This document shows, piece by piece, positions 1,483-19,631 of a stretch of 26,538 bases of DNA. Position 1 is the first letter of the stretch. Each line of letters starts with the position of its first letter. The notes beneath the pieces were generated by a model, which was not told the origin of the DNA, searched no databases, and saw only the letters and a list, made by a program, of their open reading frames with translations. Position numbers and translations under genes: made by a program. This stretch comes from a virus. The stretch spans positions 1-26,538 of IMG/VR virus record IMGVR_UViG_3300019759_000016; one strand, 5' to 3'.

Positions 1483-3855
1483 ATGGCTTTCGCTCCGGTA
1501 TCATTCATAATTCCAGAATACGATAGAGAGCTGTATTCGAATTGGTGGTTAAAGGCTTACGAGCCTGGAATAACCACACCCAAAACCATGGCTACAGATT
1601 CAACTGGCGTTACCACTGCCAGTAGATTTGAGTTAAATAGTCAGGGGTTCCCTATAACAGCAGGTAATGCTTTTGTAGTTCCTCATATTGACGGAGATTA
1701 TGATTTATGGTTGTTCCCTACTGCGGCAGAGGCTGATGCAAACGACACCACTAATGCTCTTCAGTTTGCTGATAATCTAGGAGTCGAAGGCACTATATTG
1801 AGCGTCTTGAACTCAACAGGAAGTACAGTATATAGAATAGAATTCACAACAAGCATTCTAACAGACACAACAAGCCCGGACGTCTATGAATCAGATTTTT
1901 ATGATTCAAATAAAGTCATAGATTCAGGAGCAAAATTAATAGCTACAGGAACAACGGGAACTACCGGAACAGTCGTTAATTCTGTTTTTTTTAATGGGAA
2001 TGGTGACGGCTATAAAATAAACAGCCCTTCATCAGTCACACAGCTAGGGGCCGTCGGAGCTTCTGATGAATCATCTATTGCTCAGTCAATGATTGATGAT
2101 TACAACACGTTATTCGTCCCGAAAGATTTTGAGTTATTCGCAGTTGAAATCGAGCTTGCTGATGATTCTTATGTGAGAAATAGAGGGACGATCACGATGG
2201 TTGCGTCTTCCCCAGAGTGGGCAAGAATCTTTACAAACAAAGACAGAGCGAACGGTAATAAGAGGGTAACAATAGACAATACTGACGGAAATATAGACGG
2301 GAACTACCCAAATCAGAGTTCGGTTGTACAACAGAGTCTTTATTTTGTTGAATGCTCTGATTTTGATATTTTCGGTGGTAAATTTGGCAGAAACAGCGCA
2401 CCGCAAGTAACACCAAGCAATCACCCTGAAGGGCCGTTCGATCAAGGTGTGCCGTATGGTGAGGCGAGTGTGGACAACCCTACGATAGGATGTGTTGTAT
2501 TCATGGGCGGTATTAATAACACTGTTCGCGACTACACTATGAGAGATTGGCAGCAGGAAGGTGTTCAGCTTAGATGGAATGAAGGAGGCTTAATAAATAA
2601 CTTTAAAGCGATCAACGGCCCAGAAACTGACGATATTTATTATACAAGTGTTGATTTCGGTAGCCGCGACACAGCAGCCAATCTTTCTATAGGATCTCAT
2701 GTATTAGTTCAATCTGCCCATATGTTTGCCGGTGTTGAGCAGCAGCCTGATTTAATCTATTCATCTCTAGTATCGGGGGTTACCGATCTAACTCTAGAGG
2801 ATTTTACCGATACACTGCGATGGACATTGGTAGAGAGAGATATAACCAATGACCTTGGGTTTACAGCAGCAAGAACCGGCGGCGCTAAAGGTCAAATGAA
2901 TATTATCTCAAACGGCTTTGCTGCATTTTGTCGAGCATCTTCGTTTAGCCAGGATTCCGAACTTTCTGGCATGTCCAACCTGCATAGCTACCATAATGCA
3001 TTTTTTAACGGCATCAACTGGGGTCATGAAACAACACCAGCCGCCAGGGGGTACGGTAATGGCTTAGTAGCAATTAATGCAGGCTGGAAAGGCTCAGCTG
3101 GAGGATTGGATTTTGGTATAGGAATAGTTTCCGAAAGTTCTGATGTTAGTATTTCTGATTTTTACGTTTCTGGCGCTAAAGCCAAAGGTATAAACATATC
3201 AGGAAACTCCGATGAGATAAAAGTATCTAACGGGACGATTAAGTTTTCAGGCGAAGAAGGTCTTCTTGGTTTCAACTCTTTTGTGAAATGCGTGAACGTC
3301 ACATCACGATTAAATACCAGCCTGGATTTCAATGTAACTGGGACTGGCAGATTATCACTGAGCAACTGTGAGGATAGTGACAGACGCTCATTTAATACTG
3401 ATGAGCTGTACCCCGATTTTCTTAGTCAAACTGTTAGTTGTTTAATATCAGGGACAGGATCAAGAAAAGAGGGTTTTCTTTCTAATTTTGCAAAGCCTCC
3501 TGGTCAACCTCTCGTTCGCATATTCTATGACGACGGGGCAACGAGTGCAGATAATGCAACACTAGAAATTGAGTATCTAGAAAGAAATGCGGGATCGGGC
3601 GCAATTGGTAATCAGTATGCTGTGAGAGAGACTTTTTTAATCTCCGGTTCAAGCGGCTCTAGAAATATAGCTTCGCTTGTACAAGATTACTCACAGGGCA
3701 GACAATTTAATGTTATTTGGTCAACTGATACAATCCAGGTATTTCTACAAGATACAGTGCCATCAGACGTGGCAGCGGTGGCAAATCAAAACTCAATTAG
3801 AGCCACTATATCAAGTCAGGTCAGCTCTGGATCATATCAACTAAGATTAGGATAA
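1483..3855 (+). CDS. Tailspike / receptor-binding protein with beta-helix-type body
   Basis: A 790-residue protein that probably binds and may degrade host surface polysaccharide. Residues 1 to about 105 resemble the head-binding or particle-anchoring domain of podovirus tailspikes (YSNWWLKAYEPGITTP, then GFPITAGNAFVVPHIDGDYD). The central part is rich in Gly, Asn, Ser, Thr and Val, with short repeating strands (for example DVSISDFYVSGAKAKGINIS, then KVSNGTIKFSG), as expected for a right-handed parallel beta-helix. The last 130 or so residues look like a separate beta-domain. The ATG is preceded by AGAGG at suitable spacing. No lyase or hydrolase active site could be assigned by eye. It is the last plus-strand gene before a convergent minus-strand operon. 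Confidence 0.85.
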   Translation: MAFAPVSFIIPEYDRELYSNWWLKAYEPGITTPKTMATDSTGVTTASRFELNSQGFPITAGNAFVVPHIDGDYDLWLFPTAAEADANDTTNALQFADNLGVEGTILSVLNSTGSTVYRIEFTTSILTDTTSPDVYESDFYDSNKVIDSGAKLIATGTTGTTGTVVNSVFFNGNGDGYKINSPSSVTQLGAVGASDESSIAQSMIDDYNTLFVPKDFELFAVEIELADDSYVRNRGTITMVASSPEWARIFTNKDRANGNKRVTIDNTDGNIDGNYPNQSSVVQQSLYFVECSDFDIFGGKFGRNSAPQVTPSNHPEGPFDQGVPYGEASVDNPTIGCVVFMGGINNTVRDYTMRDWQQEGVQLRWNEGGLINNFKAINGPETDDIYYTSVDFGSRDTAANLSIGSHVLVQSAHMFAGVEQQPDLIYSSLVSGVTDLTLEDFTDTLRWTLVERDITNDLGFTAARTGGAKGQMNIISNGFAAFCRASSFSQDSELSGMSNLHSYHNAFFNGINWGHETTPAARGYGNGLVAINAGWKGSAGGLDFGIGIVSESSDVSISDFYVSGAKAKGINISGNSDEIKVSNGTIKFSGEEGLLGFNSFVKCVNVTSRLNTSLDFNVTGTGRLSLSNCEDSDRRSFNTDELYPDFLSQTVSCLISGTGSRKEGFLSNFAKPPGQPLVRIFYDDGATSADNATLEIEYLERNAGSGAIGNQYAVRETFLISGSSGSRNIASLVQDYSQGRQFNVIWSTDTIQVFLQDTVPSDVAAVANQNSIRATISSQVSSGSYQLRLG

Positions 3856-4387: not shown

Positions 4388-4443
4388 TATATCCACCTTA
4401 TTCTTACTACTTAACAATACTTAATTGTGGTCTTTCTTGGTTT

Positions 4444-4501
4444 TATAACACAGTCATTAAGCACGACTTCGCTACGCTCGCGGCTTAATAGACATGTTAT
4501 A
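4444..4501 (-). repeat. attC-like folded element D
   Basis: A 58-bp element between two small minus-strand genes. In gene orientation it starts with TATAAC, which contains the stop codon of the 66-codon gene, and ends with GTTATA. Inside, GTC-T-ATTAAGC pairs with GCTTAATGAC, leaving a single unpaired base in the 5' arm. The middle holds GCCGCGAGCGTAGCGAAGTC. Outer boxes, inner TTAAG/CTTAA arms and one extrahelical base are the architecture of integron attC sites. The outer boxes are GTTAT-type, not the usual GTTRRRY. The inner 24 bp match element C with one mismatch. Confidence 0.6.
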
Positions 4502-4697
4502 ACTCAATATTGTTTAGAGCATTAACTTTAATCTCAACGCCTTCTGGGTCAATGTCTTTAAAGTTATCTCTAATTATCTGCTTGCAGGCATCAATTAACT
4601 CAAACTCTTTTAAGTCAACGGTCACGCAACCAAAGTAGAACTTGTTAATATCAATACCGTCCCAAAAATCAAATTGTAAAAAATACTGTTTCTTCAT
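4497..4697 (-). CDS. Hypothetical 66-aa protein in an attC-like module
   Basis: Unrecognised acidic small protein (MKKQYFLQFDFWDGIDINKF at the start). The N-terminus looks like beta-strands and residues 28-47 (DLKEFELIDACKQIIRDNF) like a helix, so a compact alpha/beta domain is likely. The ATG is preceded by GGTGATGAGAT. Its stop TAA lies inside the TATAAC box of element D, and element C sits directly upstream. It is therefore a single gene flanked on both sides by related folded repeats, the layout of an integron cassette. No function can be assigned. Confidence 0.65.
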   Translation of the reverse strand: MKKQYFLQFDFWDGIDINKFYFGCVTVDLKEFELIDACKQIIRDNFKDIDPEGVEIKVNALNNIEL

Positions 4698-4716
4698 ATC
4701 TCATCACCATTAAAGT

Positions 4717-4773
4717 TATAACAACACACTCTTGTGGACTTCGCTGCGCTCGCGGCTTAACAGGTGTGTTATG
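4717..4773 (-). repeat. attC-like folded element C
   Basis: In gene orientation it begins CATAACACAC, contains TTAAGCCGCGAGCGCAGCGA in its 5' half, and ends GTGTGTTGTTATA, so the outer 5-10 bp are complementary. The core from 4737 to 4760 differs from the same stretch of element D by one transition. The left box CATAAC holds the stop codon that would end the neighbouring 92-codon gene if its internal amber codon were read through. Confidence 0.6.
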
Positions 4774-4810
4774 TGTCGTACTTCCTCTTGAGTTCTTCAA
4801 GCTGTTTAAG

Positions 4811-5089
4811 CTATCGCTGTTTTACAAGCGCTGCTCTATTCTGTTCTTTTGATTCCCTAACTTTCGCCTCTTCCTCAGTCTCAGGTCGGTAGTAGTAGAT
4901 TTCTATCGCAGCGTAAGAGCTATCCTCATAACCAGATACAGATTCCAGCTCAACTTTAGCGCTACTCCTAAATTCTTCTGGAATGGAGCTTATTTTTTCC
5001 TCAAACCATTCAAGAAACTTAATAGCATTCTCTTCAGGCCATTCACCTTGATACTGTTCTTTATTAAAAACTTCTATTTTAATGTCCAT
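4811..5089 (-). CDS. Hypothetical 92-aa acidic protein, probably shortened by an in-frame amber codon
   Basis: The start is the ATG at 5089, preceded by GGAGGT at good spacing; longer in-frame versions would run into element B. The N-terminus (MDIKIEVFNKEQYQGEWPEE) and middle suggest an alpha/beta fold. The C-terminus is a charged helix (ETEEEAKVRESKEQNRAALV). Directly after the TAG stop, the same frame continues 13 codons (LKQLEELKRKYDT) with the same helical character. It then ends at TAA inside the CATAAC box of element C, exactly where neighbouring genes end. An original product of about 106 residues is therefore likely. Function unknown. Confidence 0.65.
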   Translation of the reverse strand: MDIKIEVFNKEQYQGEWPEENAIKFLEWFEEKISSIPEEFRSSAKVELESVSGYEDSSYAAIEIYYYRPETEEEAKVRESKEQNRAALVKQR

Positions 5090-5106
5090 CTTTGCACCTC
5101 CAAGCG

Positions 5107-5206
5107 CATAACAAAAAAATGTTGCCGACTTGCTCGCTCCGTTCATGTCTTAATTTCAGGTTATGAACCATCCGGAATAACCGGACGGCTTAACAGGTGT
5201 GTTATG
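5107..5206 (-). repeat. attC-like folded element B (composite)
   Basis: In gene orientation it runs from CATAACACACCTGTTAAGCC, the same opening as element C, through a CCGTCCGGTTATTCCGGATGG-like hairpin. A second CATAACCTGAAATTAAG half-site, shared with element A, follows. It ends in TTGTTATGCG just before the ribosome binding site of the next gene. It looks like a fusion of the halves of two sites, as if an intervening module had been lost or two elements had recombined. Confidence 0.5.
5149..5188. repeat. 40-bp perfect direct repeat, copy 1
   Basis: This stretch starts CTTAATTTCAGGTTATGAAC and ends AACCGGACGG. It is identical over 40 bp to 5440..5479. It contains a GC-rich hairpin (CCATCCGG, AATAA-type loop, CCGGACGG with one G-U pair) and a CATAAC/GTTATG box. 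The two copies bracket the 54-codon gene. Confidence 0.9.
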
Positions 5207-5207
5207 T

Positions 5208-5372
5208 TTATTCCTGCTCAAGCTTGATGTTGATTTTAATGTCGTTTCCTTTTCCGTCATCCGAATTAAGCATTGCCACTTTCGACCCCTCTGCTACTCC
5301 ACAATAGCCGTATGCTGAATTAAGTTTGCGCGCAGCATAAGCAATAATATCTTTCAGTATTTCGTTTTCCAT
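5208..5372 (-). CDS. Hypothetical 54-aa protein in an attC-like module
   Basis: Small minus-strand gene with AAAGGTGATCTAA before its ATG. The product starts MENEILKDIIAYAARKLNSA, a likely amphipathic helix. It continues through YGYCGVAEGSKVAMLNSDDG and ends in alternating charged strands (NDIKINIKLEQE). No family recognised. It is a single gene bracketed by attC-like elements A and B and by two identical 40-bp repeats, so it can be pictured as one exchangeable unit downstream of ssb. The stop is 1 nt from the ACATAAC opening of element B. Confidence 0.6.
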   Translation of the reverse strand: MENEILKDIIAYAARKLNSAYGYCGVAEGSKVAMLNSDDGKGNDIKINIKLEQE

Positions 5373-5402
5373 TTAGATCACCTTTCTGTTTAATTAAAAA
5401 AA

Positions 5403-5456
5403 TATAACAACAAATTCAAATCGGGCACATTATGTGCAGCTTAATTTCAGGTTATG
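5403..5456. repeat. attC-like folded element A
   Basis: On the plus strand it reads TATAACAACAAATTCAAATC, a GCACATTATGTGC palindrome, then CTTAATTTCAGGTTATG. AAATTCAA pairs with TTAATTT leaving one unpaired C. This is the same pattern as the TTCAAG/CTTAA boxes and extrahelical base of canonical integron attC sites. Outer boxes are TATAAC and GTTATG. Confidence 0.6.
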
Positions 5457-5479
5457 AACCATCCGGAATAACCGGACGG
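5440..5479. repeat. 40-bp perfect direct repeat, copy 2
   Basis: Identical to 5149..5188, 291 bp away in the same orientation. It lies just downstream of the ssb stop codon on the minus strand, where its GC-rich hairpin could also act as a weak terminator or RNA-stabilising stem. Confidence 0.9.
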
Positions 5480-6578: not shown

Positions 6579-7168
6579 TGTGAGGCCAACTTATAAACTT
6601 CTTCATATCTCTTAGCTTTTAGTTCGCTAAGATGGCCTATCTTATAGGCTTTACTAACCATGATTCCTTTTTGATTCCATGAATAACTTCCATCATTATT
6701 AGCGTTACATAGAAGGCCAAGCAACGTATTATATTGTTCGGTGTTGATTAAGTTTATATCTGCCATATCTGCGCGGCTTTCATCGTTCAAACCAGTTTCA
6801 ATACAAAACGTCTTGAGGTGTGCTGTTTTAGCAGCATAGGTGATTGCTTTGCCTGGTGCTTTATCTCCGGAGTCCATTGCATGAGACTCTACAAAGACAG
6901 TTATTCTATCGGCCGGATTATCTATATTTACGTAGTTAACGTTAAAATCACATTCATAAATATAATTGCCTTTAGCATTCTGTCTTGATCGTGATTCGCC
7001 AGACTTATGAACCTCGACTACAATTCCCTCTCTAATAAGATACGGAGTTAAAATAGCAAGTAATTCATCATGCAAAACCCCTGTCCCTTGCCCTGCCGAT
7101 CCTTTCTTGATGTAAATATTTTCCCTCATGACAGCATTAATACGCTGATAGATATTAGGCTTCTCCAT
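6575..7168 (-). CDS. erf: Erf-family single-strand annealing protein
   Basis: A 197-residue ERF-superfamily recombinase, started at the ATG preceded by GGAGGAGAAAG; a longer in-frame form would intrude 36 bp into the upstream gene without a ribosome site. The family signature GKAITYAAKTAHLKTF lies at 106-121. It is preceded by GQGTGVLHDELLAILTPYL and a Gly/Ser-flanked strand region. Erf proteins form rings and anneal complementary strands, here working with the adjacent exonuclease and SSB. The C-terminal third is helical and ends LKAKRYEEVYKLASQ. It overlaps the preceding 94-codon gene by 14 bp and the exo start by 4 bp. Confidence 0.9.
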   Translation of the reverse strand: MEKPNIYQRINAVMRENIYIKKGSAGQGTGVLHDELLAILTPYLIREGIVVEVHKSGESRSRQNAKGNYIYECDFNVNYVNIDNPADRITVFVESHAMDSGDKAPGKAITYAAKTAHLKTFCIETGLNDESRADMADINLINTEQYNTLLGLLCNANNDGSYSWNQKGIMVSKAYKIGHLSELKAKRYEEVYKLASQ

Positions 7169-9792: not shown

Positions 9793-9828
9793 AATAAAGT
9801 TTCTTCGCAGAAGTTCCTTACGTTAATT

Positions 9829-9936
9829 TCACACTAAGCAGGGTATTGCAGTACAGTGTGACTCCATCCTTTCGCAAAGGATACCAGCCCAAGAGCAGTT
9901 ATAAAGCGAGACCTGCAAGCCCTACGGGGCTTTTTT
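9829..9936 (+). terminator. Structured 3' leader and intrinsic terminator
   Basis: Three stems in order: TCACACT/AGTGTGA (9829-9835 with 9855-9861), a perfect hairpin ATCCTTT-CGC-AAAGGAT (9866-9882), and the terminator AAGCCC-TACG-GGGCTT with a T6 run (9917-9936). The last ends the early operon. The upstream stems may be an untranslated regulatory or processed RNA. Confidence 0.75.
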
Positions 9937-9937
9937 A

Positions 9938-9946
9938 TGCTATACT
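9938..9946 (+). promoter_or_regulatory. Extended -10 promoter directly after terminator
   Basis: TGCTATACT begins 2 bp after the T-run of the terminator: TGC extension plus TATACT. No convincing -35 is visible because that position lies in the terminator hairpin. It would start a short transcript ending at the next terminator. Confidence 0.45.
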
Positions 9947-9949
9947 ACG

Positions 9950-10026
9950 ATTTCTCACGTCGGGTATTGGAGAGTAATCTCCTGCCTGCAAAGGCAAATC
10001 GGTTTATCACTGGTTTGCCTTTTTTT
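9950..10026 (+). ncRNA. Candidate small RNA with own terminator
   Basis: A unit of about 75 nt between the extended -10 at 9938 and a strong terminator: AAAGGCAAA (9990-9998) paired with TTTGCCTTT (10014-10022) and a T-run to 10026. A smaller hairpin GGAG-AGTAAT-CTCC lies inside. No plausible reading frame with a ribosome site is present. Whether the product acts in trans is unknown. Confidence 0.45.
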
Positions 10027-10030
10027 ATGC

Positions 10031-10070
10031 TTGCAATTTATACAATATTAATTACAATTACAGTTGTAAT
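10031..10070 (+). promoter_or_regulatory. TTGCAA-type promoter with overlapping inverted repeat
   Basis: TTGCAA (10031-10036), 16 bp, TACAAT (10053-10058). The inverted repeat ATTACAA-N6-TTGTAAT (10051-10070) covers the -10 and start region and is a candidate operator. The same hexamers and spacing occur at 19588. It would transcribe the tRNA region. Confidence 0.6.
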
Positions 10071-10107
10071 ACGGCGTGGAACCCGTAAGAAAAAAAGGTT
10101 AAGAACA

Positions 10108-10195
10108 GGGTATTTAGATAACAGGCGCAGGTGGGTTTTCCTTCTTGGCCTTTCCCCGTTCCAAACTGGGTCTGTTAATCTAAGTGCCCTTTTTT
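10108..10195 (+). terminator. Large imperfect stem ending in T6, possible terminator or RNA domain
   Basis: GGG, TTAGAT and AACAG (10108-10124) pair in order with CTGTT, ATCTAA and CCC (10172-10189), with small internal bulges. A T-run follows at 10190-10195. The 47-nt loop is C/G-rich and may fold further. It could be an attenuator between the promoter at 10031 and the tRNA. Confidence 0.45.
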
Positions 10196-10291
10196 GTGTC
10201 TAAAGTTTAACGTGGTCGATACTTAATAACTTTTAATCTGGCTGATCAGTATCTCGGTAGCATGTGAGAACCCAGAAGACACAATCCTTTT

Positions 10292-10423
10292 CTAAATGTG
10301 TATTGAAGAGCTTTAGCAGTGGTCTGGGCGCGTAGCTAGCGTTACTTAAGGTTCGATTCCTTAACTAGATTGGGTATCAGTTCTGGTTCGATTCCAGATA
10401 AGGCTCTATCAATACACATTTAG
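10292..10423 (+). ncRNA. tRNA-like structured RNA on a 24-bp stem
   Basis: CTAAATGTGTATTGA (10292-10306) is perfectly complementary to 10409-10423, and AGAGCTTTA (10307-10315) pairs with TAAGGCTCT (10399-10407) with one G-U. Only A10408 is bulged, giving a 24-bp stem. Inside are two arms with the same 7-nt loop TTCGATT, typical of a tRNA T-arm: TTAAGG/CCTTAA (10346-10364) and TCTGG/CCAGA (10382-10398). A TAGC/GCTA-type arm lies to the left. The inner acceptor-like stem plus T-arm resembles a tRNA, but the arms and loops are the wrong length and no CCA follows. It may be a degenerate tRNA or a tRNA mimic. Confidence 0.6.
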
Positions 10424-10444
10424 CCTTTCTATTTCCACGCCTTT

Positions 10445-10521
10445 AGGCCAATAGCATAATTGGTTAATGCACTCGGCTCATAACCGAGATTATGACAGTT
10501 CGATTCTGTCTTGGCCTACCA
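10445..10521 (+). tRNA. tRNA with CAU anticodon, probably tRNA-Ile(AUA)
   Basis: Complete cloverleaf: acceptor AGGCCAA/TTGGCCT, D-arm with AATTGG loop, anticodon arm CTCGG-CTCATAA-CCGAG, T-arm GACAG-TTCGATT-CTGTC, and an encoded ACCA end. A CAU anticodon can mean initiator Met, elongator Met or the lysidine-modified Ile that reads AUA. The acceptor has C4-G69 and C5-G68, the pairs known as TilS determinants in E. coli tRNA-Ile2. This favours Ile(AUA) over Met, and AUA is common in the genes of this window. It is inserted between two structured RNA stretches. Confidence 0.9.
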
Positions 10522-10529
10522 TTACATTT

Positions 10530-10780
10530 TCCAAGTTAAAACTCGTTCGGGTATACCAACGGTAGCGAGAATAAACAACTATGTGGCGTTTCTACGGCCT
10601 TAGAGCCATCAAATAGAGCGAATTAAACTTGGACTGCCAGAGCGTTACCATAGCTTTAGTAACGGCGACAAACAGAGCTTATGCTGAATGAAAAATCTTA
10701 ATTGGAGTAGTGACCAGTTAAGTCATGAGGATTTGGTGCTTTCCTCGGCTGATGCCCCGTAAAATCTAGCCAAAATTAGT
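10530..10780 (+). ncRNA. Candidate structured noncoding RNA downstream of the tRNA
   Basis: No credible gene from the tRNA to 10983. An 8-bp stem, TCCAAGTT/AACTTGGA (10530-10537 with 10626-10633), closes a domain. That domain holds a layered hairpin (CTAT, TGGC, TCTA pairing with TAGA, GCCA, ATAG; about 10579-10617). Next come CGTTAC/GTAACG around 10644-10665 and CTTAATTGG/CCAGTTAAG around 10697-10722, enclosed by AAATC/GATTT. Several nested stems in a row suggest a folded RNA. Size and tRNA association recall large phage RNAs such as GOLLD, but no signature was matched. From 10781 to 10927 I see little except AT-rich sequence. Confidence 0.45.
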
Positions 10781-10927
10781 ATTTCTGATTATAGAGTATG
10801 CTGGCAGGCAAAAGAGATTAAATAATTAGAGCGGTTAGGAATGTGATTGTTTATTCATTCAGCCCCGTTACTAAATGTTAAGTATTGTCAAAAATAATCC
10901 AATCCAAAAAAAGTCTAAAAATAAACT

Positions 10928-10955
10928 TGCATAATGTATTATTTCCTAATACATT
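10928..10955 (+). promoter_or_regulatory. TTGCAT-type promoter with long palindromic operator candidate
   Basis: TTGCAT (10928-10933), 16-bp spacer, TACATT (10950-10955). The perfect inverted repeat AATGTATTA-N5-TAATACATT (10933-10955) fills the spacer and -10. A bound dimer would block RNA polymerase. It precedes the clamp-like gene and the replication operon. Confidence 0.6.
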
Positions 10956-10983
10956 AAATAGACACTTTAAGAGGAGAGAAGAA

Positions 10984-11556
10984 ATGAATAATTTAATTTT
11001 GCCAGCAAAACCAATCAAGGCGGCTATGTACTACATGGCGAAAATGGATGTTCGATATTACCTTAACGGTGTGCACATAAACCCTAAAGGATATATTGAG
11101 GCGACTAACGGCCATTGCGCAATAAGAGTCAAATGCGAAGAGGCTAAGCAATATGAATCAACGATAGTCAGAATTGATGGAAGCATCCCCACGCCATCAG
11201 AATTGATATACATTAATATTGATGATGTCGGCTCCGGTTATTGTTATTTTGAAAAAGCAATCGGGGGGTATGTTGAATCAAATGGTATTCGAAAGACTTT
11301 GGGCGTTCTTGAAATTGAAGGTAATTTTCCTGATTTAGATAAAATTGCGAAAAGCATTGATCCATCCCCGCTAATAAACATTGGCTTTAATCCTGACTAC
11401 ATTGCTTTGGCAGGAAAGGCACAAAGGGCTTTAGGTTCAAGCTTTCCTGTTGTAAAGGCGGTAATGAGCGCCAAAGATAAAGCGATTAGGCTGGATTTTG
11501 TTAATCTATCCTATGAGGCCTATTCTCTTGTTATGCCTGCTAAATACGAGGGTTAA
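10984..11556 (+). CDS. Sliding-clamp (DnaN)-like domain protein
   Basis: A 190-residue protein started at the ATG with AAGAGGAGAGAAGAA upstream. The in-frame upstream codons overlap the promoter/operator and are unlikely to be translated. YYLNGVHINPKGYIEATNGH resembles the 'YLNGVxI...ATDGHRL' strand-turn of beta-clamp domains found in some phage proteins. Later sections (FPDLDKI, then KDKAIRLDF) also fit clamp-type strands. At about half the length of DnaN it could hold one or one and a half clamp domains. It is the first gene of the replication operon, so a processivity or polymerase-recruiting role is plausible but inferred. Confidence 0.6.
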   Translation: MNNLILPAKPIKAAMYYMAKMDVRYYLNGVHINPKGYIEATNGHCAIRVKCEEAKQYESTIVRIDGSIPTPSELIYINIDDVGSGYCYFEKAIGGYVESNGIRKTLGVLEIEGNFPDLDKIAKSIDPSPLINIGFNPDYIALAGKAQRALGSSFPVVKAVMSAKDKAIRLDFVNLSYEAYSLVMPAKYEG

Positions 11557-14344: not shown

Positions 14345-15091
14345 ATGACAGATCAAAAAAATAACACTGGCAACCGGAACACTGGCAACCGGAACACTGG
14401 CGACTGGAACACTGGCTACTGGAACACTGGCAACCGGAACACTGGCGACTGGAACACTGGCAACCGGAACACTGGCAACCGGAACACTGGCGACTGGAAC
14501 ACTGGCGACTGGAACACTGGCGACTGGAACACTGGCAACCGGAACAATGGCTACTGGAACACTGGCAGCCGGAACACTGGCAACCGGAACACTGGCTACT
14601 GGAACACTGGCAACCGGAACACTGGCAACCGGAACACTGGCAACTGGAACACTGGCAACCGGAACACTGGCTACTTTAATATCGAAACACCTAAAACGAT
14701 TATGGTGTTTGACAATGAAATTGATATATCTGAATGGAATGAATGCGTTAAACCAAATTTTATTTATTTTGATTTAACAGAGTGGGTTGATGAGTCAGTA
14801 ATGACACAAGAAGAAAAAGATAAAAACGATGATTATGGAACTGTTGGTGGTTATTTAAAGAAAAAAGATTACAAAGAGGCATTCCAAGAATCATATAAGA
14901 ATGCATCAAAAAAAGACAGGGAGAAAATCTTTAATATTCCTAATTTTGACGCAGATAAGTTTTTTGAGATTAGCGGTATTGATGTTCGAAAAGATGCTGA
15001 AAAAGAAGATAAGAAAAATTCTCTTCTTGAAAAGCTCAAGAGCCTTATCGATAAGGCTGAAGAGCTAAAAAAAGAAGCGAATAATTTATAA
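14345..15091 (+). CDS. NTG-type pentapeptide-repeat protein with charged C-terminal domain
   Basis: 248 residues. Residues 7-111 are 21 tandem pentapeptides of the form N-T-G-x-x, where the last two are NR, DW, YW, SR, NW or finally YF; one unit is NNGYW. Such pentads are expected to form a right-handed quadrilateral beta-helix. Residues 112-248 (TPKTIMVFDNEIDISEWNEC, then TGGYLKKKDYKEAF-like segment, and NFDADKFFEISGIDV) form the non-repeat domain found with these repeats in phage proteins. The end is a Lys/Glu coiled-coil. GAGGAGATAGAAA precedes the ATG. Function unknown; DNA mimicry as in Qnr/MfpA is only an analogy. Confidence 0.85.
   Translation: MTDQKNNTGNRNTGNRNTGDWNTGYWNTGNRNTGDWNTGNRNTGNRNTGDWNTGDWNTGDWNTGNRNNGYWNTGSRNTGNRNTGYWNTGNRNTGNRNTGNWNTGNRNTGYFNIETPKTIMVFDNEIDISEWNECVKPNFIYFDLTEWVDESVMTQEEKDKNDDYGTVGGYLKKKDYKEAFQESYKNASKKDREKIFNIPNFDADKFFEISGIDVRKDAEKEDKKNSLLEKLKSLIDKAEELKKEANNL
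14363..14677 (+). repeat. 21 tandem 15-bp units encoding pentapeptides
   Basis: The unit is AACACTGGC plus NAC YGG (the last unit ends TTT). Apart from one AAC replacing ACT in unit 13, variation is confined to the three or so bases that choose NR, DW, YW, SR or NW. Such near-identity at silent positions indicates recent copy-number change by slippage or unequal exchange. Whole-unit changes keep the frame. Confidence 0.95.
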
Positions 15092-19560: not shown

Positions 19561-19583
19561 AGCCCTCTTTTGAGGGCTTTTTT
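19561..19583 (+). terminator. Intrinsic terminator after lysis region
   Basis: AGCCCTC-TTTT-GAGGGCT followed by T5. The 130 bp between the last lysis gene and this hairpin hold no ORF, but do contain small stems (for example CGCC/GGCG near 19446-19463) and a GCAGTACA sequence that also occurs before the terminator at 9917. This may be a 3' RNA element. Confidence 0.85.
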
Positions 19584-19587
19584 GTGC

Positions 19588-19631
19588 TTGCAATAAAACA
19601 AAACTAATATACAATATTGGTATTCAATATT
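19588..19631 (+). promoter_or_regulatory. Promoter and operator for the Rha-like gene
   Basis: TTGCAA (19588-19593), 16 bp, TACAAT (19610-19615), the same hexamers and spacing as at 10031. A perfect inverted repeat AATATTG-N5-CAATATT (19613-19631) covers the -10 end and the expected start point, suggesting repression, perhaps by the gene product itself. Confidence 0.65.

Follow-up and report, generated by a model that had tools for sequence, protein, structure and literature searches.

A block without credible genes in a lambda-like early region

We analyzed a 26,538-base IMG/VR virus record (the window, meaning this whole stretch of DNA) of a marine phage, which carries a lambda-like early region. 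Its minus-strand early genes encode a YqaJ exonuclease, an Erf-like protein and SSB. A Cro-like gene and small genes follow on the plus strand and lead up to a block of ~1.2 kb (9793–10983), beyond which are a gene for a beta-clamp-like protein, the O-like/P-like pair and NinG; the block sits between the small early genes and those for replication. The gene downstream of the block (10984–11556, plus strand) resembles phage DNA polymerase III beta-clamp genes (PHROG 3007) and is preceded by an operator-like dyad, TAATGTATTA-TTTCC-TAATACATTA (10932–10956). A preliminary description of this DNA had seen no credible gene in the block, and we reached the same result: the sole ORF of at least 50 amino acids lying wholly within it (9937–10203, 88 amino acids) starts inside a terminator tail, overlaps a conserved RNA module and had no match in a Pfam search. 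Searches of IMG/VR by clamp and P-loader protein yielded no relatives, and the block was absent from terminase relatives. Elsewhere in the window, small minus-strand genes at 4430–5470 are separated by recurring inverted repeats (TTATAAC...GCTCGCGGCTTAA...GTTAT) reminiscent of the attC-like spacers of integrons, and positions 14345–14690 encode a pentapeptide-like protein with NTGNR/NTGDW/NTGYW repeats (Pfam PF01469).

A pattern scan of the block returned two T-run terminators (1.0 ± 0.9 expected), both on the plus strand, as are all of the RNA features described below. One is an intrinsic terminator-like hairpin that closes the upstream early gene run (9917–9938), and the other, with a 14-bp stem (9990–10027), has a z score of −4.6 in a sliding fold analysis; the third of the three terminators originally proposed is a long-stemmed, conserved one at 10108–10195. 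Promoter-like sites were no more frequent than chance (four found, 5.1 expected), but one site, TTGCAA-16-TACAAT at 10031–10058, is backed by relatives, most of which have TTGCA...TATAAT at the same position. An operator-like dyad, ATTACAA-TTACAG-TTGTAAT (10051–10070), spans its −10 region. The stretch 10020–10070 has a counterpart within the window at 19577–19630, where a terminator and a TTGCAAT...ATACAATATT promoter/operator-like sequence recur.

Two other features attributed to the block did not hold up. The proposed 75-nt sRNA (in the region 9820–9945) folded no better than shuffled sequences (z = −1.3), and no relatives of it turned up. Nor was folding unusually dense across the whole block, which is surpassed in structure by other parts of the window: its mean z score in a sliding analysis was −0.78, compared to −0.22 elsewhere, with other stretches of the window lower still. 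Strong values within the block were confined to the terminator at 9990, a hairpin at ~10101–10200 and a tRNA-like region. The structure signal of the block resides in discrete elements.

A pseudoknotted 5′ module shared with other phages

The only early blastn match was Vibrio phage 1.110.O, in which a stretch just 5′ of a tRNA-Met also aligned to window positions 10053–10208 with 65% identity over 162 nt. Starting from this match we reached relatives in phages vB_VaM_H2, Seahorse, BT-1011, 1.240.O, 1.242.O and 1.275.O, none of which was annotated as RNA, and in total we found the element, hereafter the 5′ module, in at least 16 other phages. In the window it spans 10069–10197, directly behind the promoter at 10031–10058, and comprises a 5′ hairpin, two pseudoknot helices (10077–10082/10158–10163 and 10097–10105/10142–10150), a long terminator-like stem (10108–10124/10172–10189) and a T-run. 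A covariance model (R2) built with the window excluded found the window's module at full length (49.7 bits, E = 4e-11), as well as nine further loci. When we searched 394 genomes for the module, a single match was returned, in a bacterial contig with a tRNA-Gly directly behind the module.

Comparative folding in related phages, which had been suggested as a check on the block, uncovered covarying stems in this module and in the 3′ module described next. In the RNAalifold consensus of the 5′ module, 17 of the 29 pairs were changed on both sides. The pseudoknots, two additional helices crossing the main stem that we read by eye and then checked, behaved likewise. The first occurred as ten distinct helices, with 94% of positions paired, compared to 74% after strands were swapped between phages; the second occurred as eight, with 89% paired, compared to 43% after swapping, although these paired percentages are biased upward because the strands had been picked by eye. 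Both the R2 match and the two pseudoknot helices place the window's element in this family.

A 3′ module closed by long-range helices

The preliminary description had also noted a further multi-stem domain after the tRNA gene of the block, and this proved to be well founded. Its core (10655–10889, z = −2.56) is closed by two nested perfect helices, one of 11 bp (helix 1, TTTAGTAACGG/CCGTTACTAAA, 10655–10665/10865–10875) and one of 10 bp (helix 2, GCTGAATGAA/TTCATTCAGC, 10683–10692/10854–10863), an arrangement that appeared in only 1 of 2000 shuffles. A stretch preceding the core (10530–10633), closed by TCCAAGTTAAA/TTAAACTTGGA, forms the first part of the module but is weak by itself, as its z score alone is only −1.0.

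A blastn search with the stretch behind the tRNAs of phage Seahorse retrieved 37 records of Vibrio and Pseudoalteromonas phages, none annotated as RNA, and a sequence-only profile of this 3′ module did not find the window significantly. The window has a conserved GCGACAAACAG (10665–10675) and a 3′ motif AATGTTAAGTATTGTC (10874–10889), and in the window and these relatives the two helices occupy the same places beside a shared GCGAYAAACAG-like motif and a TAAGTATTRTC-like end. Their sequences differ: helix 1 corresponds to TTAGACCCG/CGGGTCTAA in phage 1.131.O and to TTAGACC/GGTCTAA in Seahorse, and helix 2 to AGTGGTATGA/TCGTACCACT in phage 1.085.O. Across the window and the Vibrio and Pseudoalteromonas phages, the two closing helices covary. 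In a swap test using whole pieces of 39–53 nt, the two window strands together reached −28.2 kcal/mol, whereas any other pairing that included a window strand reached −19.7 kcal/mol or weaker. By row, a strand's own partner was the best in five of the seven phages; the exceptions were HS5 and NF, whose 5′ pieces pair at least as well with the 3′ piece of a relative. The window's element is a member of this 3′ module family by its helices, two short motifs and position. The corresponding stretches of 1.110.O, 1.275.O, 1.240.O and 1.242.O are of other types and lie outside the alignment with the window.

A tRNA slot between the two modules

Between the modules lies the tRNA that had been noted in the block, a tRNA-Met (CAT anticodon) with an encoded CCA (10445–10521). 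It was the only tRNA called by ARAGORN and, at 69 bits to RF00005, the only Rfam match over threshold in gathering and permissive scans. The same order, 5′ module, slot and 3′ module, was found in the relatives, in which the slot held tRNA-Met and tRNA-Arg; tRNA-Trp, -Arg and -Gly; tRNA-Arg; tRNA-Trp and -Arg; a tRNA-like element with two T-arms (described below), in one copy of the locus in Vibrio phage NF; or nothing, in which case ~20 nt separated the modules. Phage NF carries two copies (L598 and L607) with different 3′ modules, one having the two-T-arm element and one having no tRNA.

That the block is a conserved structured RNA locus is very likely, and we think it probable that it is a modular phage noncoding-RNA locus, made up of a promoter, the pseudoknotted 5′ module, a tRNA slot and the 3′ module with its long-range helices. 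The proposal of a single large noncoding RNA, or of several processed ones, around the tRNA is borne out to the extent that many marine phages have two covarying modules on either side of a tRNA slot; its sRNA and the number of its promoters are not supported.

The principal alternative is that the parts act separately, the 5′ module being a stand-alone sRNA or an attenuator, at which transcription would either stop or continue into the tRNA genes, and the 3′ module serving as leader to the gene that follows. The strong terminator-like hairpin at the end of the 5′ module points to separate RNAs, barring read-through, and in Seahorse and vB_VaM_H2 the conserved T-run directly adjoins the tRNA. 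In addition, several phages have their next gene starting close behind the 3′ module, and the 5′ module of Vibrio phage BT-1011 is accompanied neither by an intact tRNA nor by a 3′ module. However, the downstream genes vary among phages, which makes a gene-specific leader unlikely, and the modules remain together, ~20 nt apart, even when the tRNA is absent. We regard separate action as rather unlikely, and the modular locus is the preferred reading.

A tRNA-like RNA with two T-arms

Upstream of the tRNA-Met, the slot of the window contains a second element (10292–10423), the tRNA-like structure of the preliminary description. It is enclosed by a perfect 15-bp inverted repeat (10292–10306/10409–10423) that was matched in none of 2000 shuffles, and the surrounding region (10280–10440) folds with a z score of −4.1. 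A single bulged base separates this stem from a 9-bp acceptor-like stem (10307–10315/10399–10407), inside which are two T-arms, TAAGG-TTCGATT-CCTTA (10347–10363) and TCTGG-TTCGATT-CCAGA (10382–10398); their cores are at 10350 and 10385, the arms are 24 nt apart, and the second stacks on the acceptor-like stem. Between them, constrained folding placed a hairpin, ACTaGAT-TGGGT-ATCaGT (10364–10381). Four other loci (L263, L508, L549 and L566) likewise have a hairpin with GG in or beside the loop at this place, with differing sequences, and the window's hairpin reads as a putative second D-like arm. The hairpin at the anticodon position is ambiguous, folding by eye with a tetraloop or, as predicted, with a 7-nt loop, GTAGCTA.

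ARAGORN and Rfam, at gathering and permissive thresholds, made no tRNA call at 10292–10423, which has two T-arms instead of the recognized cloverleaf, single T-arm and anticodon loop of an ordinary tRNA. What it does have is an acceptor-like stem closing two T-arms, a D-like arm and an anticodon-position hairpin, the plan that we found in elements of phage tRNA clusters. A covariance model (R1) of such elements, built with the window excluded, ranked the window's element first in the 26.5 kb, over its full length (36.3 bits, E = 7e-8) and ahead of the window's real tRNA (24.1 bits), although rare ordinary tRNAs in other loci score up to 38.4 bits. The exact DNA pattern of the element had no match when searched, and blastn searches with the tRNA-like region and with the domain downstream gave only chance matches at E = 10. 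The RNA is probably a double mimic of the tRNA elbow that takes no part in decoding.

Two-T-arm elements in phage tRNA clusters

A search pattern for two close T-arm cores matched at least 120 IMG/VR stretches. Among the matches listed, 40 of 50 pairs of T-arms spaced 12–18 nt apart were closed by a 7-bp acceptor-like stem, compared to one to five when the 3′ strand was shifted; for pairs 19–30 nt apart, 23 of 104 were closed, compared to three to eight. The core group follows a plan of acceptor stem, D-like arm with TTGG, 5-bp anticodon-position hairpin with a GACG-like tetraloop, first T-arm, GG linker and second T-arm. In an alignment of 19 sequences, 21 of the 26 pairs were changed on both sides. 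All five pairs of the anticodon-position hairpin covaried, even though this hairpin had not been a selection criterion. Many of the elements lie 2–11 nt from tRNAs on the same strand. Matches to two close T-arms in bacterial genomes were mostly duplicated tRNA 3′ ends and fall outside this family.

Such duplications suggest another origin for the element, namely a tRNA in decay whose 3′ part was duplicated and which has no function. In bacterial genomes the 3′ ends of tRNAs are indeed found duplicated in tandem, some of our two-T-arm matches are a plain tRNA plus a fragment, and the anticodon loop of the window's element is atypical. Decay sits poorly, however, with closed elements of consistent plan and covarying stems that recur in many phages inside intact tRNA clusters, with the tetraloop conserved in the core group, and with a window copy whose perfect 15-bp stem is set off by one bulged base from the acceptor-like stem of 9 bp. 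We consider decay unlikely and retain the two-T-arm RNA as a probable non-decoding mimic. For the region as a whole, a DNA-level hotspot for the insertion of tRNAs and small genes (an attachment or recombination site), with only incidental folding, is highly improbable; it would suit the differing slot contents but not the compensatory base changes in the helices, pseudoknots included, that indicate selection on RNA structure.

Relationship to known phage RNAs

The preliminary description had named GOLLD as a precedent and called for an Rfam covariance search. In that search only the tRNA (RF00005) rose above threshold in the window; the precedent applies in plan and not by model match. In GOLLD RNAs the 5′ region varies whereas the 3′ region is conserved, tRNAs sometimes sit in the linker, and one example lies downstream of a Met-tRNA (PMC12286853). 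The window and its relatives are alike in being phage loci near or around tRNAs, with the tRNAs in a linker between 5′ and 3′ regions, but their modules are shorter (~130 and 230–350 nt) and the 5′ module ends in a T-run. The GOLLD model (RF02032) gave no match over threshold in the window or the relatives tested, a result obtained without a positive control and compatible with a very diverged member. ROOL, a large structured RNA of phages and prophages, is often near tRNA islands (PMC12286853); its model (RF03087), also used without a positive control, gave no match to this locus at E = 10. In the absence of a model match we did not file the locus under GOLLD or ROOL, even though its plan is the same as GOLLD's. 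Assembly into a homo-oligomeric RNA nanocage is a further hallmark of GOLLD. By description, the locus also recalls Vibrio phage ICP1, in which a roughly 1-kb space without ORFs gives rise to an abundant ~800-nt noncoding transcript (PMC7567579), but ICP1 has no tRNAs.

The two-T-arm elements resemble tRNAs (RF00005) in their acceptor-like stem, GG-bearing D-like arm, anticodon-position hairpin, T-arms and location in tRNA clusters, and differ by an additional T-arm and D-like segment; the core group also has a tetraloop in place of the anticodon loop. The bacterial Y RNA YrlA is a non-decoding RNA with a tRNA-mimic domain, and the two-T-arm elements are likewise tRNA-mimicking and non-decoding in our reading. 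Identity with YrlA is unsupported, as an Rfam scan of 20 loci with two-T-arm elements returned only tRNA and tRNA-Sec over threshold. In a literature search that covered mainly open-access papers, we found no description of two-T-arm RNAs or of a conserved RNA in Vibrio phages.

A model for the locus

In the model that we propose, a transcript would begin at the promoter at 10031–10058 and carry first the pseudoknotted 5′ module (10069–10197), whose T-run would be read through, then the tRNA slot with the two-T-arm RNA and tRNA-Met, and last the 3′ module, closed by its two long-range helices (10655–10875). The transcript would fold as a 5′ and 3′ scaffold with the tRNA cargo in the linker, as in GOLLD, and tRNA-processing enzymes would cut out the tRNA and, perhaps, also the tRNA-like RNA. 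We put at somewhat short of an even chance that the two modules form one scaffold around a slot holding tRNAs or a two-elbow, non-decoding tRNA mimic, and so constitute an undescribed modular phage RNA family. A GOLLD-like mode of action from one transcript, with the tRNAs carried in the linker, is the mode that we favor, but it is a more tentative suggestion that we rate clearly below an even chance.

To our knowledge, the structures of GOLLD and ROOL, both large phage RNAs near tRNAs, are known and their functions are not. If our model is true, small Vibrio phages (one of which infects Vibrio natriegens) would hold an independent family of shorter RNAs built to the same plan, and it would become testable whether the tRNA slot is the purpose of such RNAs. 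Many phages of Vibrio and Pseudoalteromonas carry relatives of both modules that lack annotation and matched no known RNA family.

The two-T-arm elements are a second and broader result, being unannotated inside tRNA clusters, including that of an isolate, the cyanophage Synechococcus phage S-CREM1, where such an element occupies the unannotated gap between tRNA-Phe and tRNA-Ile. ARAGORN called some of them (at L436, L442, L184 and L229) tRNA-Ser(cga) or tRNA-Leu(cag), and annotated lists of phage tRNAs may thus include non-decoding RNAs. More elaborate arrangements also occur: in two phage contigs (L159, ~6600–6770, and L163, ~2950–3120) a whole tRNA or mini-tRNA is nested in another tRNA-like structure, with the outer acceptor and T-arm on either side of the inner tRNA, and in a phage tRNA cluster (L155, 406–540) a closed element has three T-arms.
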